A stretch of DNA of 49,797 nt from a virus: positions 1-49,797 of IMG/VR virus record IMGVR_UViG_3300037587_000281; one strand, written 5' to 3'. Positions 5,897 to 38,356 of this stretch are shown piece after piece. The translations under genes were made by a program, and so were the position numbers. Positions within the stretch are counted from its first letter, which is position 1; each line of letters starts with the position of its first letter. Below the pieces are notes generated by a model. The model did not search any database. It was not told the DNA's origin and was given only the letters and a program-made list of their open reading frames with translations.

Positions 5897-5998
5897 TGTT
5901 ATAATTAAATTGCGCCTAGCTTTAGCGGGTGAAAGTCAGGATTCATAGCCCTGATTGGCGCGCAACTTTTCAGCTATGATTAACCAGTTATGAGGTTA
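5897..5998 (+). promoter_or_regulatory. Promoter and structured leader of homing gene 1
   Basis: An extended -10 box TG-T-TATAAT lies at 5897-5905. The following leader can fold as an outer stem (TTGCGCC near 5911 with GGCGC near 5957) around an inner TCAGG/CCTGA hairpin. A second weak pair, TAACC (5981-5985) with GGTTA (5994-5998), covers the GAGG ribosome site, and a TATGAT box (5975-5980) lies directly in front of its 5' arm. Confidence 0.45.
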
Positions 5999-6000
5999 TT

Positions 6001-6627
6001 ATGTTTAAAGAAATTCCTGCAAGTAAAATGTCAACTTCAAGAAGAAGATTAGTCCATGGCGTTGGAATAAATGACGCTAAATATATTATAAATCCATTAA
6101 TAAATGGCGAGATGACAAGGTGCCAATTTTACAGTAGATGGAATAAAATGATAACTAGATGTTATTCACTCAAATTCCAAGAAAGAAATCCTACGTATAT
6201 TGGGTGTTCTGCCTGCCCTGAATGGTTGATTTTTTCTAATTTTAAATCATGGATGGAAAAGCAAGACTGGGAAAACAAAGAATTAGACAAGGATATAATA
6301 TCTCCCGGGAACAAGATTTACAGTCCTGAAAATTGCGCTTTCGTTCCAAAACCACTAAACGGATTAATAGTCGACCAAGCCACATCTCGAGGTAAATACC
6401 CGCGTGGGGTTTATTTTAACGAGCTGAGGGGTAACATATGTTCTAATATTAGCTATCAAGGGGTTAGCACACATATCGGAACTTTCAGCACTACTAAGGA
6501 GGCGTCAAGAGCATACATAAAAGCAAAGGTTGAAATAATATTAGCCGCAGTTGATGAGCAGCAAGACATTAGAGTTGCAAACGGTTTAAAGCTTCATGCT
6601 GACTTATTGTTAAGAGATATCATCTAA
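6001..6627 (+). CDS. HNH/AP2-type homing endonuclease-like protein 1
   Basis: This 208-residue protein is one of four relatives in this genome (also 18918, 26436 and 37712). They share the blocks GVGINDAxY, a W..M..RCYS segment, PTYxGC..C.EW, and LDKDI...GNK.YSPENC.FV. The last block resembles a degenerate HNH core. The C-terminus (YPRGVYFNELRGN through IGTFSTTKEASRAYI) looks like an AP2 DNA-binding domain. Proteins of this kind in phages are free-standing mobile endonucleases. It separates the MuF-like gene from the portal gene. Confidence 0.75.
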   Translation: MFKEIPASKMSTSRRRLVHGVGINDAKYIINPLINGEMTRCQFYSRWNKMITRCYSLKFQERNPTYIGCSACPEWLIFSNFKSWMEKQDWENKELDKDIISPGNKIYSPENCAFVPKPLNGLIVDQATSRGKYPRGVYFNELRGNICSNISYQGVSTHIGTFSTTKEASRAYIKAKVEIILAAVDEQQDIRVANGLKLHADLLLRDII

Positions 6628-9011: not shown

Positions 9012-10151
9012 ATGGCTAATACACTAACGGATCTAATTCCGGATTTATACGCAGCGCTTGACGTTGTATCACGAGAGCAGGTTGGTTTTATTCCTGCTGT
9101 AACCCTAAACGCAACAGACGGACGAGCGGCTGTTGGCGAAAGTGTTCGAGTGCCAATTACTGGCGCCGCAAACGTTGTTGATATCACGCCAGCAATGGTA
9201 ACTCCAGAGCCTACCGATCAAGTAGTGACAAATACAGATATTATTATCACTAAATCTCGTGCCGCTGAGTTTGGCTGGGTTGGTGAGGAACAAAAAGGCT
9301 TAAACAACGGTCCAGGCTTCTTAACTATTCGCGCCGGTCAAATGGCCCAAGCGATGCGAAGCCTAACCAATGAGATCGAAACTGATATCGCAAGCTTGTA
9401 CAAAGCAACGTCTCGCGCTTTCGGCACTGCCGGTGTAACTCCATTCGCCTCAACGCTGCAAGATACCGCTCAGGTACGAAAGATTTTATCTGATAACGGC
9501 GCACCATTAGGTGATTTACAGCTGGTTATTGACTCAACCGCAGGCGCTAACATGCGTACCTTGACGAACTTAACCAAGGCTAACGAGGCTAACGACACAT
9601 CACTATTGCGCCAAGGCGTGTTGCTTGACGTTCATGGCTTTTCAATTCGCGAGTCAGCTCAGAACGCGAACGTAGTTAATGGTACTGGTACGTCATTTAC
9701 CACCGATACGGCTGGTTATGCTGTTGGTGCAACAGTTATTACGCTTATTACTGGCACTGGCACAGTGTTAGCTGGTGATGTTGTTACATTCGCGGGCGAC
9801 ACTAACAAGTATGTTGTCTCTTTTGGAACTGTTGGCGCTGGGCCTATTACGTTAGCTGCACCTGGCCTTCGTGTTGCGATTGCTGCGTCTGCTACTGCCT
9901 TGACCATCGGCGGTGATTTCGTTGCTAACATGGCATTCGCTCGAAGCGCATTGCAGCTCGTAACTCGCGCACCAGCGTTGCCAGAAGAAGGCGATATGGC
10001 AATTGACCGCATGTTAATTACTGATGACCGTTCAGGGTTAAGTTTTGAAGTGTCAATCTATCCTGGCTACCGTAAGGTTCGTTATGAGATTGCTATCGCC
10101 TGGGGATTTGAGAACATCAAGCCTGAGCATGGAGCCATCCTTCTAGGCTGA
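9012..10151 (+). CDS. Major capsid protein, P22 coat-like
   Basis: The 379-residue protein follows the scaffold. Blocks such as LYKATSRAFGTAGVTPFAS and LVIDSTAGANMRTL are typical of the P22-type coat branch of the HK97 fold. Residues about 225-300 (VGATVITLITGTG, VLAGDVVTFAGD) are a Gly/Thr/Val-rich stretch matching an inserted beta-barrel like the P22 I-domain. The end (YRKVRYEIAIAWGFENIKPE) is also characteristic. A short AAGGT ribosome site precedes the ATG with no separate promoter, so it is co-transcribed with the scaffold. Confidence 0.9.
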   Translation: MANTLTDLIPDLYAALDVVSREQVGFIPAVTLNATDGRAAVGESVRVPITGAANVVDITPAMVTPEPTDQVVTNTDIIITKSRAAEFGWVGEEQKGLNNGPGFLTIRAGQMAQAMRSLTNEIETDIASLYKATSRAFGTAGVTPFASTLQDTAQVRKILSDNGAPLGDLQLVIDSTAGANMRTLTNLTKANEANDTSLLRQGVLLDVHGFSIRESAQNANVVNGTGTSFTTDTAGYAVGATVITLITGTGTVLAGDVVTFAGDTNKYVVSFGTVGAGPITLAAPGLRVAIAASATALTIGGDFVANMAFARSALQLVTRAPALPEEGDMAIDRMLITDDRSGLSFEVSIYPGYRKVRYEIAIAWGFENIKPEHGAILLG

Positions 10152-10160
10152 TATTATTTA

Positions 10161-10221
10161 TTGCAAACCCCAATAGATAAGTTAAAATACCCTTACTGTT
10201 AATCGCATTAAGGGTATTTTT
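10161..10221 (+). promoter_or_regulatory. Promoter overlapping a 12-bp hairpin before homing gene 2
   Basis: TTGCAA (10161-10166), a 16-bp spacer and TAAAAT (10183-10188) form a good promoter. AAAATACCCTTA (10184-10195) pairs perfectly with TAAGGGTATTTT (10209-10220), which contains the AAGGG ribosome site and runs into T10221 and the ATG. The predicted start near 10195 removes nearly all of the 5' arm. The hairpin with its T tail could also terminate read-through transcription from the coat gene. Confidence 0.65.
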
Positions 10222-10950
10222 ATGAGACTTAAAGATATTGGAGCAACCGGAGCGAAAAGAAAGGGGTTATCTAAAAGCCCTCTATACGGGATTTGGTCAC
10301 TTATGCTTTATAGGTGTTATGACAAAAATTCAAAATCATATATTAATTATGGAAAGAGGGGGATAACCGTTTGCAATAGATGGTTTTGTTTTGATAATTT
10401 TCATGATGATAATATAAAGCTTTATAATTACGGCTTAGAAATAGATCGAACCGATAATAATGGTGATTACTCACCGGGCAACACAAGATGGGTCACGCAT
10501 TCTCAGAATTGCAGGAATAGAAGAACATCAGTTTTAGCAACAATTAATGGGGTGGAAAAATCAGTTTATGACTGGGCTGATGAGGCGGGAATTAACCCCA
10601 AAATGGTATTAGAAAGAGTTCAGCAGCAAGGATGGAGCATTGAGAGGGCGTTATCAGAACCTACAGCAAATAGGCACGAAAACATGTTAATAGCGCAAGG
10701 TAAGCGATGGGAAGGTCACGTCAAAGTTCCAAAAAGAAAACCAAAGACAGCTAGAAAGATAAGAACCATCGAGTACAAAGGCGAAACAATGACCATTAAG
10801 CAGCTTTCTGATATAGTAGGCGTAAGCGCTAAGCTTTTGAGTAAACGTTTATTTGAAAGAGGCTGGCCTCTTGATAGGGCGGTCACGAATGAAAATTTCA
10901 AAGGCACAAATCAATTTACTAAGGAACAATCATGCAAATCCCAACAGTAA
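10222..10950 (+). CDS. HNH homing endonuclease with DNA-binding repeats
   Basis: The 242-residue protein begins with a phage HNH domain: SPLYGIWSLMLYRCYD, YGKRGITVCNRW, then LEIDRTDNNGDYSPGNTRWV, whose last segment is the HNH core. The C-terminal half has two similar helix-turn-helix units, YDWADEAGINPKMVLERVQQ and IKQLSDIVGVSAKLLSKRLF, each followed by a W-(S/P)-(I/L)-(E/D)-RA motif. These resemble NUMOD-type modules. It lies between coat and connector genes and its 3' end overlaps the next small gene by 19 bases. Confidence 0.8.
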   Translation: MRLKDIGATGAKRKGLSKSPLYGIWSLMLYRCYDKNSKSYINYGKRGITVCNRWFCFDNFHDDNIKLYNYGLEIDRTDNNGDYSPGNTRWVTHSQNCRNRRTSVLATINGVEKSVYDWADEAGINPKMVLERVQQQGWSIERALSEPTANRHENMLIAQGKRWEGHVKVPKRKPKTARKIRTIEYKGETMTIKQLSDIVGVSAKLLSKRLFERGWPLDRAVTNENFKGTNQFTKEQSCKSQQ

Positions 10951-11072
10951 AAGTTAAAGACAAAGCCGGTAATGAGGTCATCGTAAATGAAGAAGACGCT
11001 CATTTATATGATGAGTTTAAAAAGCCAGCGAAGAAAGCGAACCCAGCAAAGGACAAAAAGGCGGATAAGTAA
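10932..11072 (+). CDS. Small lysine-rich structural-operon protein, 46 aa
   Basis: The ORF starts MQIPTVKVKDKAG and ends in a Lys/Ala-rich tail. It overlaps the end of the homing gene and ends TAATG with the next gene, with AAGGAA upstream. Short proteins with this KVKDxxG start are common just after coat genes in phages, but their role is not known to me. Confidence 0.6.
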   Translation: MQIPTVKVKDKAGNEVIVNEEDAHLYDEFKKPAKKANPAKDKKADK

Positions 11073-26423: not shown

Positions 26424-26463
26424 TCACCACAAGGGCTAGGCTTTCGTCCAATTCTTGTGGTGA
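26424..26463. terminator. Bidirectional terminator between tail tip gene and homing gene 5
   Basis: TCACCACAAG (26424-26433) pairs perfectly with CTTGTGGTGA (26454-26463) across 20 bases. T-rich tails follow on both strands. The hairpin includes the last codons of the minus-strand homing gene, so it serves both converging genes. Confidence 0.75.
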
Positions 26464-26972
26464 TTTCTTTTACCTCGACTAACGGCGCTCATATGCGACT
26501 GATTTAACCCATTATCACGGCAGAATTCAGACAGATTATACACATCAACATTCTCACCGCTTGGGCTTGTAAACTTATAGTGCTTAGCGCTTGACTCGAT
26601 AAGATTGTCCGCTTGTATCACAAAGCAACACGTCTCGGCAGAATAAGTTTTGTTACCCTTAACAAGAATATCTTTATCTAATTGCTTACCCTGCCAGTCT
26701 TGAGTTAGCATCCATAGACGGAACGCGCTAAATAAACACCACTCTTTACAGGTGGTGCACCCTTTATACGTTGGGTGTTTTTCCTGACATTTGGGCGAAT
26801 AGCAGCGGTGAATCATGTTTACCCACGTACGGTATATTGGGCACATAATCCGCTCGCCGTCAATTACCGGATAGGTCAAATAATCAGCGTCATTTATGCC
26901 AACGCCACAAACCAGTTTTCTAAAAGCTAGCGACTTATTACTTGCTGGAATTTCTTTAAATGAGTTTTTCAT
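26436..26972 (-). CDS. Homing endonuclease-like protein 5 with exchanged C-terminus
   Basis: The first 130 residues (FKEIPASN, GVGINDADY, RCYSPKCQEKHPTYKGC, QDWQGKQLDKDILVKGNK) are close to the proteins at 6001 and 37712. After FVIQADNL the AP2-like part is missing. Instead there is a helix-turn-helix module (VDVYNLSEFCRDNGLNQSHM, SAVSRGKRNHHKNW) like NUMOD1-type repeats. At 178 residues it is shorter than its relatives. It runs against the late operon and has its own promoter on the minus strand. Confidence 0.75.
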   Translation of the reverse strand: MKNSFKEIPASNKSLAFRKLVCGVGINDADYLTYPVIDGERIMCPIYRTWVNMIHRCYSPKCQEKHPTYKGCTTCKEWCLFSAFRLWMLTQDWQGKQLDKDILVKGNKTYSAETCCFVIQADNLIESSAKHYKFTSPSGENVDVYNLSEFCRDNGLNQSHMSAVSRGKRNHHKNWTKA

Positions 26973-37621: not shown

Positions 37622-37722
37622 TGTGTCACCTCGATTATATTAACGAATGAATAAGCTTCGATAATTGCGAATACCGCAAACAAGAACCAAAACCAGCGCT
37701 TTGCGTGCTTTTTATATGGCAT
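37618..37722 (-). CDS. Mini membrane protein, 34 aa
   Basis: MPYKKHAKRW followed by the hydrophobic segment FWFLFAVFAIIEAYSFV suggests a single membrane helix with a basic inner end. It overlaps the end of the homing gene by 11 bases. Confidence 0.4.
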   Translation of the reverse strand: MPYKKHAKRWFWFLFAVFAIIEAYSFVNIIEVTQ

Positions 37723-38356
37723 TGACAAGTCCTTTTGTTAGCTTTGCGGCGTGAAGCTTTAGTCCATTAGAGATTAGCGGGTCGCTTTGTTCGGATGCCG
37801 CTTGTAGTATTGTCTTTGACTTAGCATCGATGTATGCGGCGCTTGCCAATTCTGGAGTGGTATAACGACCTAAGTTTTTTGATGTTCCCTTTATATTAAC
37901 TCCAGCTTTATACTTTTTTGACTCCCTGTCATAGCTAACCCCCTGAGGGTATTCTCCTCTTTTTGCTGCGTGATCATTTAGTAGATGATTCAATTCTTTT
38001 GTTATGAATCGACAATTTTCAGGATCGTAAATCTTATTTCCAGGATTGATAATGTCTTTATCTAGATCCTTTCCTTCCCAGTCTTGCTGCTCCATCCAGT
38101 GCTTAAAAGACGTAAAACTAAGCCATTCCTCGCAAACTGCGCAATCAATATATGTTGGGTATTTTTCGTGATATTTTTTTGAATAGCACCTATTAAACAT
38201 ATTTTTCCATCTTGCGTAAAAAGGGCACGTGACTTGTTTACCTCTAATTAAAGGCATAACTATATAATCTGCGTCATTAGTTCCCATGGAAAATATCAAT
38301 TTACGTTTTGCTATTGATATTTTGCTTGCTTTGATTTGTATAAATTTATTTTTCAT
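37712..38356 (-). CDS. HNH/AP2-type homing endonuclease-like protein 6
   Basis: The 214-residue protein is closest to the 6001 one: FIQIKASKISIAKRKLIF at the start, GTNDADYIV, RCYSKKYHEKYPTYIDCAVC, QDWEGKDLDKDIINPGNK and YDPENCRFI. The AP2-like C-terminus (YPQGVSYDRESKKYKAGV, LGRYTTPELASAAY) is present. It lies in the early operon, unlike its three structural-block relatives, which shows spread to both arms. AAAGAGAT precedes the ATG. Confidence 0.75.
   Translation of the reverse strand: MKNKFIQIKASKISIAKRKLIFSMGTNDADYIVMPLIRGKQVTCPFYARWKNMFNRCYSKKYHEKYPTYIDCAVCEEWLSFTSFKHWMEQQDWEGKDLDKDIINPGNKIYDPENCRFITKELNHLLNDHAAKRGEYPQGVSYDRESKKYKAGVNIKGTSKNLGRYTTPELASAAYIDAKSKTILQAASEQSDPLISNGLKLHAAKLTKGLVNAI

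Follow-up and report, generated by a model that had tools for sequence, protein, structure and literature searches.

A candidate silencing hairpin over the ribosome site of an HNH endonuclease gene behind a phage coat gene

A hairpin between the major coat protein gene of a phage and an HNH endonuclease gene probably silences the endonuclease on read-through RNA, a reading well supported in silico for positions 10184-10220 of the 49,797-nucleotide stretch of DNA analysed here (the window). As we read it best, the element would combine a lock on the Shine-Dalgarno (SD) sequence of the HNH gene with a weak terminator, and so silence the gene on coat transcripts. The silencer, promoter and terminator readings overlap, and the main rival is a coat terminator alone. 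The features concerned are:

9012-10151 (+), major coat protein gene, P22 coat-protein-5 type (PHROG 283 major head protein, E 1.7e-97)
10161-10166 (+), TTGCAA, -35-like hexamer (4/6)
10170-10241 (+), possible outer helices 10170-10175/10236-10241 and 10178-10183/10226-10231, from predicted folds
10183-10188 (+), TAAAAT, -10-like hexamer (5/6), after a 16-nt spacer
10184-10195 (+), 5' arm of the hairpin (anti-SD arm), AAAATACCCTTA
10195 (+), predicted local transcript start, by convention 7 nt past the -10 box, provided that the promoter is genuine
10196-10208 (+), hairpin loop, 13 nt
10209-10213 (+), TAAGG, SD of the HNH gene, within the 3' arm
10209-10220 (+), 3' arm of the hairpin, TAAGGGTATTTT
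10217-10221 (+), U-tract, which is the SD-AUG spacer and gives the hairpin its terminator-like look
10222-10950 (+), HNH endonuclease gene, 242 aa (PHROG 3377 HNH endonuclease, E 5.1e-58)
10932-11072 (+), next head-operon gene, 46 aa, with a homologue in contig L005

The coat gene assignment is also backed by tblastn to annotated capsid genes; neither the HNH protein nor the coat protein matches any Pfam family at E ≤ 0.001. The endonuclease is placed in the homing type by family similarity to PHROG 3377 only, and mobility of its gene by homing is putative. Position 10222 is its likely start because the next in-frame ATG, at codon 28, falls within the HNH domain as judged by eye. A single-sequence search of the viral collection with the HNH protein returned two loci with short matches, and the 941 phage records held no homologue of at least 60% identity; in neither set was a homologue found that is near enough to check the conservation of this hairpin. 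A DNA-level search for the coat-HNH arrangement in phages returned five records with capsid matches alone.

In the closest relatives (L003-L005), whose coat proteins are 90-93% identical, there is no HNH gene at this place, which is consistent with an insertion; between the coat gene and the next gene they carry a different, terminator-like hairpin, followed by TTATTTTTA or TTTTTA. The 46-aa gene is 89% identical over 37 aa to its homologue in L005, which there directly follows the coat gene. The HNH gene likely arrived downstream of the coat stop and ahead of the SD that serves the 46-aa gene at 10932.

The same phage carries further HNH genes at 6001-6627 (+), 26436-26972 (-) and 37712-38356 (-), with PHROG 953 as best match. 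The leaders of those at 6001 and 26436, which passed the filters of the survey described below, have no significant SD lock. Just before the gene at 6001-6627, the intergenic stretch 5909-5979 (+) gives a sub-threshold match to the int-alpA RNA RF02996 (30.3 bits against a gathering threshold of 35.8, E 0.022).

The two arms of the hairpin are exact reverse complements and form a perfect 12-bp inverted repeat, which grows to 15 nt when one mismatch is allowed. Nowhere else in the window do perfect 12-bp arms flank a loop of 3-20 nt; 20 dinucleotide-shuffled windows yielded five comparable arm pairs in total (mean 0.25). The 99 nt from 10152 to 10250 fold with -25.3 kcal/mol (z = -4.06), a value that 0 of 200 shuffles equalled. 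TAAGG lies 8 nt upstream of the ATG at 10222 and within the 3' arm, which bears out the claim, made in an earlier note on this DNA, of a 12-bp hairpin over the ribosome site of the HNH gene. In predicted folds, the outer helices would place the AUG in an internal bulge; they are marginal, with 2.75% of 400 flank shuffles equally stable.

The SD is predicted to be hidden in RNA that enters from upstream and free in RNA that begins locally. For RNAs with a start between 10050 and 10170, opening the SD would cost 11.5-12.2 kcal/mol, so that the sequestration of the SD in upstream-initiated RNA that marks leaders of the I-TevI/mobE type is found here in silico. The cost falls with the position of the RNA start, to 8.2 kcal/mol at 10184, 5.2 at 10189, 1.1 at 10192 and 0.9 at 10195. 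The earlier note had proposed that coat read-through RNA is locked and locally begun RNA is free; the predicted folds agree with both halves of this proposal, and its logic is physically coherent because the SD is free only in RNA that starts within the 5' arm or beyond it. In such a scheme, coat read-through RNA would fold the hairpin and bury the SD in the 12-bp stem, and part of this RNA would probably also end there, since a U-tract follows the stem; the coat messages, though abundant, would yield hardly any HNH protein. An RNA with its start at about 10192 or beyond could not form the stem and would be translatable. Ribosomes on the coat gene would halt 32 nt before the stem and should leave it unmelted.

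The earlier account missed the terminator-like hairpin of relatives that have no HNH gene. By one mechanical rule, 60 of the 70 distinct regions downstream of the coat gene, L003-L005 included, have a hairpin with a T-run, against 33 of 260 random windows from the same loci. The 70 distinct regions represent 79 loci (a first count gave a hairpin in 69/79; two copies of the window itself were excluded). Relatives without the HNH gene carry a hairpin here, and part of the feature therefore belongs to the downstream context of the coat gene. The terminator score of the window's hairpin, 7.9, exceeds 0.69, the 98% quantile for 120 random windows, and the mirrored A- and T-tracts have the look of bidirectional terminators. 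All this would fit a plain coat-gene terminator that limits transcription past the coat gene, with the HNH gene having parasitised the site and with the SD overlap and the A-tract '-10' as by-products. We consider this rather unlikely as the whole explanation. The hairpin shares with the terminators behind phage major capsid genes its position after the coat stop and a stem followed by a T-run, but it differs from them in having reversed arms, the SD of the next gene in its 3' arm and a weaker score. Of the 60 hairpins in relatives, 57 have a G-rich 5' arm, whereas the window's hairpin has a C-rich 5' arm and a G-rich 3' arm, the orientation needed by an SD-bearing 3' arm; because the arms are reversed and the sequence is unrelated by eye, the window's hairpin is not simply the ancestral terminator. 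Measured against an intrinsic terminator, with its G+C-rich stem and immediate T-run, only three of the 12 stem pairs are G-C, and the score is lower than that of 19 of the 22 relatives scored, the remaining three being negative. RNA that passed a plain terminator would, moreover, still have its SD locked.

The evidence bears unequally on the claim of the earlier note that incoming transcripts fold and are silenced, or else terminate: hiding of the SD is predicted, and termination is plausible from the U-tract and the score. Attenuation or termination is likely a second role of the silencing hairpin, and the old terminator was likely replaced by, or altered into, this dual-role element.

The earlier note had placed a sigma70-like promoter at the 5' arm, and we found its hexamers at chance level. 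TTGCAA-16-TAAAAT has 9/12 matches, and the same scan counts 26 promoter-like sites over 10 kb, where 23.0 would be expected. With the hairpin held fixed and the upstream sequence shuffled 5000 times, a promoter of at least 9/12 arose at that place in 14.9% of cases and one of at least 8/12 in 49%. The -10 box needs no promoter as its explanation, because the A-run mirrors the T-run. A working local promoter at TTGCAA/TAAAAT is possible, although we would not presume one.

A self-insulating sigma70 promoter at this site would start RNA at about 10195, so that local RNA without the anti-SD arm would be translated and read-through RNA locked. The geometry fits this exactly and as the earlier note described: the 5' arm begins one base inside TAAAAT, and +7 is A10195, the last base of the arm. 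A -10-like TAAAAT stands at equal offset in contig L092, ending 33 nt before the ATG; the layout is enriched before HNH genes in both sets of the survey below; and near-consensus cases exist in L408 (TTGACA-18-TATATT, with the arm within the spacer) and L450 (TTGACA-17-TATAAT). On the other hand, the window's own site is of a kind expected by chance, and the survey criteria were shaped after the top cases of the first set had been seen. Where a gene has a promoter-like site as well as an anti-SD arm of 8 bp or more, that arm precedes the start belonging to the top-scoring promoter in 7/13 HNH genes and 1/4 controls, numbers too few to prove placement. On balance, we give this promoter reading somewhat less than an even chance.

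A role at the DNA level, in which the palindrome would be an operator or a target-like site for the endonuclease or a phage repressor, is very improbable. The dyad is plausible as a protein site, and I-TevI binds an operator that overlaps its late promoter (PMC2988022). Against such a role, no second copy of the dyad was found in the window, and the empty sites of the relatives have no obvious similarity to it by eye.

Silencing of this kind has known counterparts. I-TevI, I-TevII, I-TevIII and segB of T4 and mobE of Aeh1, the last a free-standing HNH gene, are presented as hairpin-regulated homing endonuclease genes in PMC2988022 and PMC3014915. The I-TevI and mobE leaders resemble that of the window in the stable stem that hides the SD in RNA from upstream promoters; their own promoter is so positioned that the 5' strand is missing from local RNA, and for such a promoter the window has a candidate site at chance level (PMC2988022, PMC3014915). 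There the local promoter is of T4 middle or late type, whereas the window has a candidate sigma70-like site, and TATAAATA, given as the T4-type late promoter motif in PMC3014915, is absent from 10100-10221. Also unlike these leaders, the window has a single hairpin that carries a terminator-like U-tract as well and abuts the coat gene. By analogy, the window's leader would work like those of I-TevI and mobE, yet we do not file it as a T4-type member because the T4 late promoter is absent and the local start is only predicted. T4 gene e (lysozyme) is comparable in that early read-through RNA hides the translation start and late RNA lacks the 5' strand, and differs in that its function is lysis and its T4 late promoters are mapped (PMC3014915).

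In T4-centred reviews and the openly accessible literature, judged by listing, no earlier description of a sigma70 form before phage HNH genes was found. The protection of IS10 and IS50 from external transcription involves a weak sigma70-type promoter and a read-through RNA that hides the translation start of a mobile-element gene; unlike in the window, that gene encodes a transposase and the arm comes from the terminal inverted repeat.

A parallel is found in Enterococcus phages (Herelleviridae, e.g. MZ147816, ON113169, PP582180), in which a relative of the window's HNH gene follows a tail or DUF4815 gene. In one lineage, four records carry AACCTCCTA ... TAGGAGG and a T-run, and in a second, two records carry GCCTCCTACT ... 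AGTAGGAGG and a T-run; in both, the anti-SD/SD hairpin is perfect, with TATAAT or TATACT between the arms. The folded leaders of Bob, 113, KEN04 and EA1 have z values from -3.6 to -6.6. The pairing is kept in two diverged sequences, and function of the lock is therefore supported. These leaders share with the window a related HNH protein, a structural gene upstream, an anti-SD/SD hairpin and a U-tract, but their inner stem is longer and their -10-like box comes after the anti-SD arm, not inside it. The depositors of MZ147816 annotate the hairpin as a terminator, and it overlaps the annotated ribosome site of the HNH gene.

Scanning the viral collection for the exact pattern recovered the same inner arms and ATG in two other contigs, L092 and L091. 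In L092, the arms, the loop length and the spacing to the ATG equal those of the window, and the gene behind the leader encodes an endonuclease of another family (PHROG 8446 HNH, E 9.3e-8), whose protein has no match in the phage collection. In L091 the hairpin is terminator-like, and no long ORF begins at the ATG. A looser pattern returned 19 loci. In some of them a gene starts at the ATG: a head gene in L293, a holin gene in L298, and endolysin genes of two types behind a common leader (L294 and L295; L304). The hairpin-plus-ATG layout is therefore not special to homing genes and serves lysis genes too, just as T4 gene e is under hairpin control (PMC3014915). Several other loci were set aside as plain terminators with no gene at the ATG (L291, L292, L296, L297, L299-L303, L305-L307).

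The leader AAAATCCCCTTA..TAAGGGGATTTTTATG is identical at L294:5817-5853, L295:5184-5220 and L304:7467-7503 (-), before two endolysin families of related phages, and looks like a conserved lysis-timing leader. The holin gene with this layout, at L298:9787-9822, belongs to PHROG 8226.

The 15-mer AAGGGTATTTTTATG occurs in at least 119 stretches. Among the matches listed, it was assessed at 81 sites in 82 sources, including the window, L091 and L092 (one was dropped, near an edge): a stem of at least 7 pairs is present at 14/81, an ORF of at least 50 aa at 35/81, and both at 5/81. Two candidate parallels were rejected, L124 because its true start is probably further downstream, and the L170 type because the stem is lost in its relative L114.

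Recurrence of the layout was assessed in a survey of HNH genes gathered by family similarity, with neighbouring genes as controls; genes with an SD of less than 4 nt or a gap of less than 35 nt were dropped before counting in both sets. Overall SD accessibility showed no difference between 100 HNH and 260 control genes (Mann-Whitney p = 0.61 for energy, 0.09 for shuffle rank), and the enrichment is confined to a minority of HNH genes. Anti-SD arms of at least 8 bp anywhere upstream were found in 10/93 HNH genes and 10/255 controls (p = 0.019), and arms of at least 9 bp in 5/93 and 8/255 (p = 0.25). A promoter-linked rule, which asks for a promoter of 8/12 or better and an anti-SD arm located downstream of its -35 box and upstream of its predicted start, was formed after the top cases of set A had been seen, so that set A is exploratory and set B, of newly fetched loci, is the replication. 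With arms of at least 8 bp, 7/94 HNH genes in set A (the window included) followed this rule, against 1/261 controls (shuffle expectation 0.2 and 1.25). At the same thresholds, set B, in which 41/86 HNH genes had passed the filters, gave 3/41 against 1/134 (p = 0.041); the two sets have some contigs in common, removal having been limited to duplicate upstream sequences. Pooled and with the window's gene excluded, the counts are 9/134 HNH genes and 2/395 controls (p = 1.2e-4), or 9/64 and 2/111 among genes with a promoter-like site only (p = 0.002). Among the 12 cases at 7 bp or more and the window's gene, the protein identity of any pair is at most 53%, and they have no common upstream DNA.

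These counts carry the caveats of a rule formed post hoc on set A, a modest replication and predicted promoters. They bear on the proposal of the earlier note that the window holds a sigma70-like variant of the I-TevI logic: such a layout is enriched before other phage HNH genes, while the window's own promoter is at chance.

Two controls with portal-like genes pass the rule at 7 bp or more (L219:450-531 and L313:320-403). Both have a consensus TTGACA-17-TATAAT promoter whose spacer holds the 7-nt anti-SD ATCCTCT, and the layout is therefore not exclusive to HNH genes. At L256:1250-1310, one palindrome serves a divergent gene pair as an 11-bp SD lock, for an HNH gene and its neighbour alike; the neighbour has no Pfam or PHROG match. 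The closest parallel by eye is L451:2450-2477, with CATAAT, TCTCCTGT, a 6-nt loop, ACAGGAGA and the ATG of an HNH gene.

In a wider reading, which we put forward tentatively and hold to be doubtful, free-standing HNH genes of phages outside the T4-like group would repeatedly have reached the same compact leader, suited to host-type RNA polymerase. Its one hairpin would stop some incoming polymerases and lock the SD of the RNA that passes; as it holds or precedes the -10 box, only RNA from the gene's own promoter would be translated. The identical 12-bp arms and the equal loop and spacing of the window and L092, in front of unrelated endonuclease genes, would suggest a portable regulatory cassette.

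Selfish endonuclease genes must persist in highly transcribed virus operons without harm to the virus, and T4 and a few relatives represent one solution, bound to T4 promoters. Such hairpins are filed as terminators in annotation despite their overlap with a ribosome site, as in MZ147816. If such a lock also operates from ordinary bacterial promoters across many phages, it would provide a sequence signature for finding more such genes, and would explain quiet HNH genes landing behind a coat gene.
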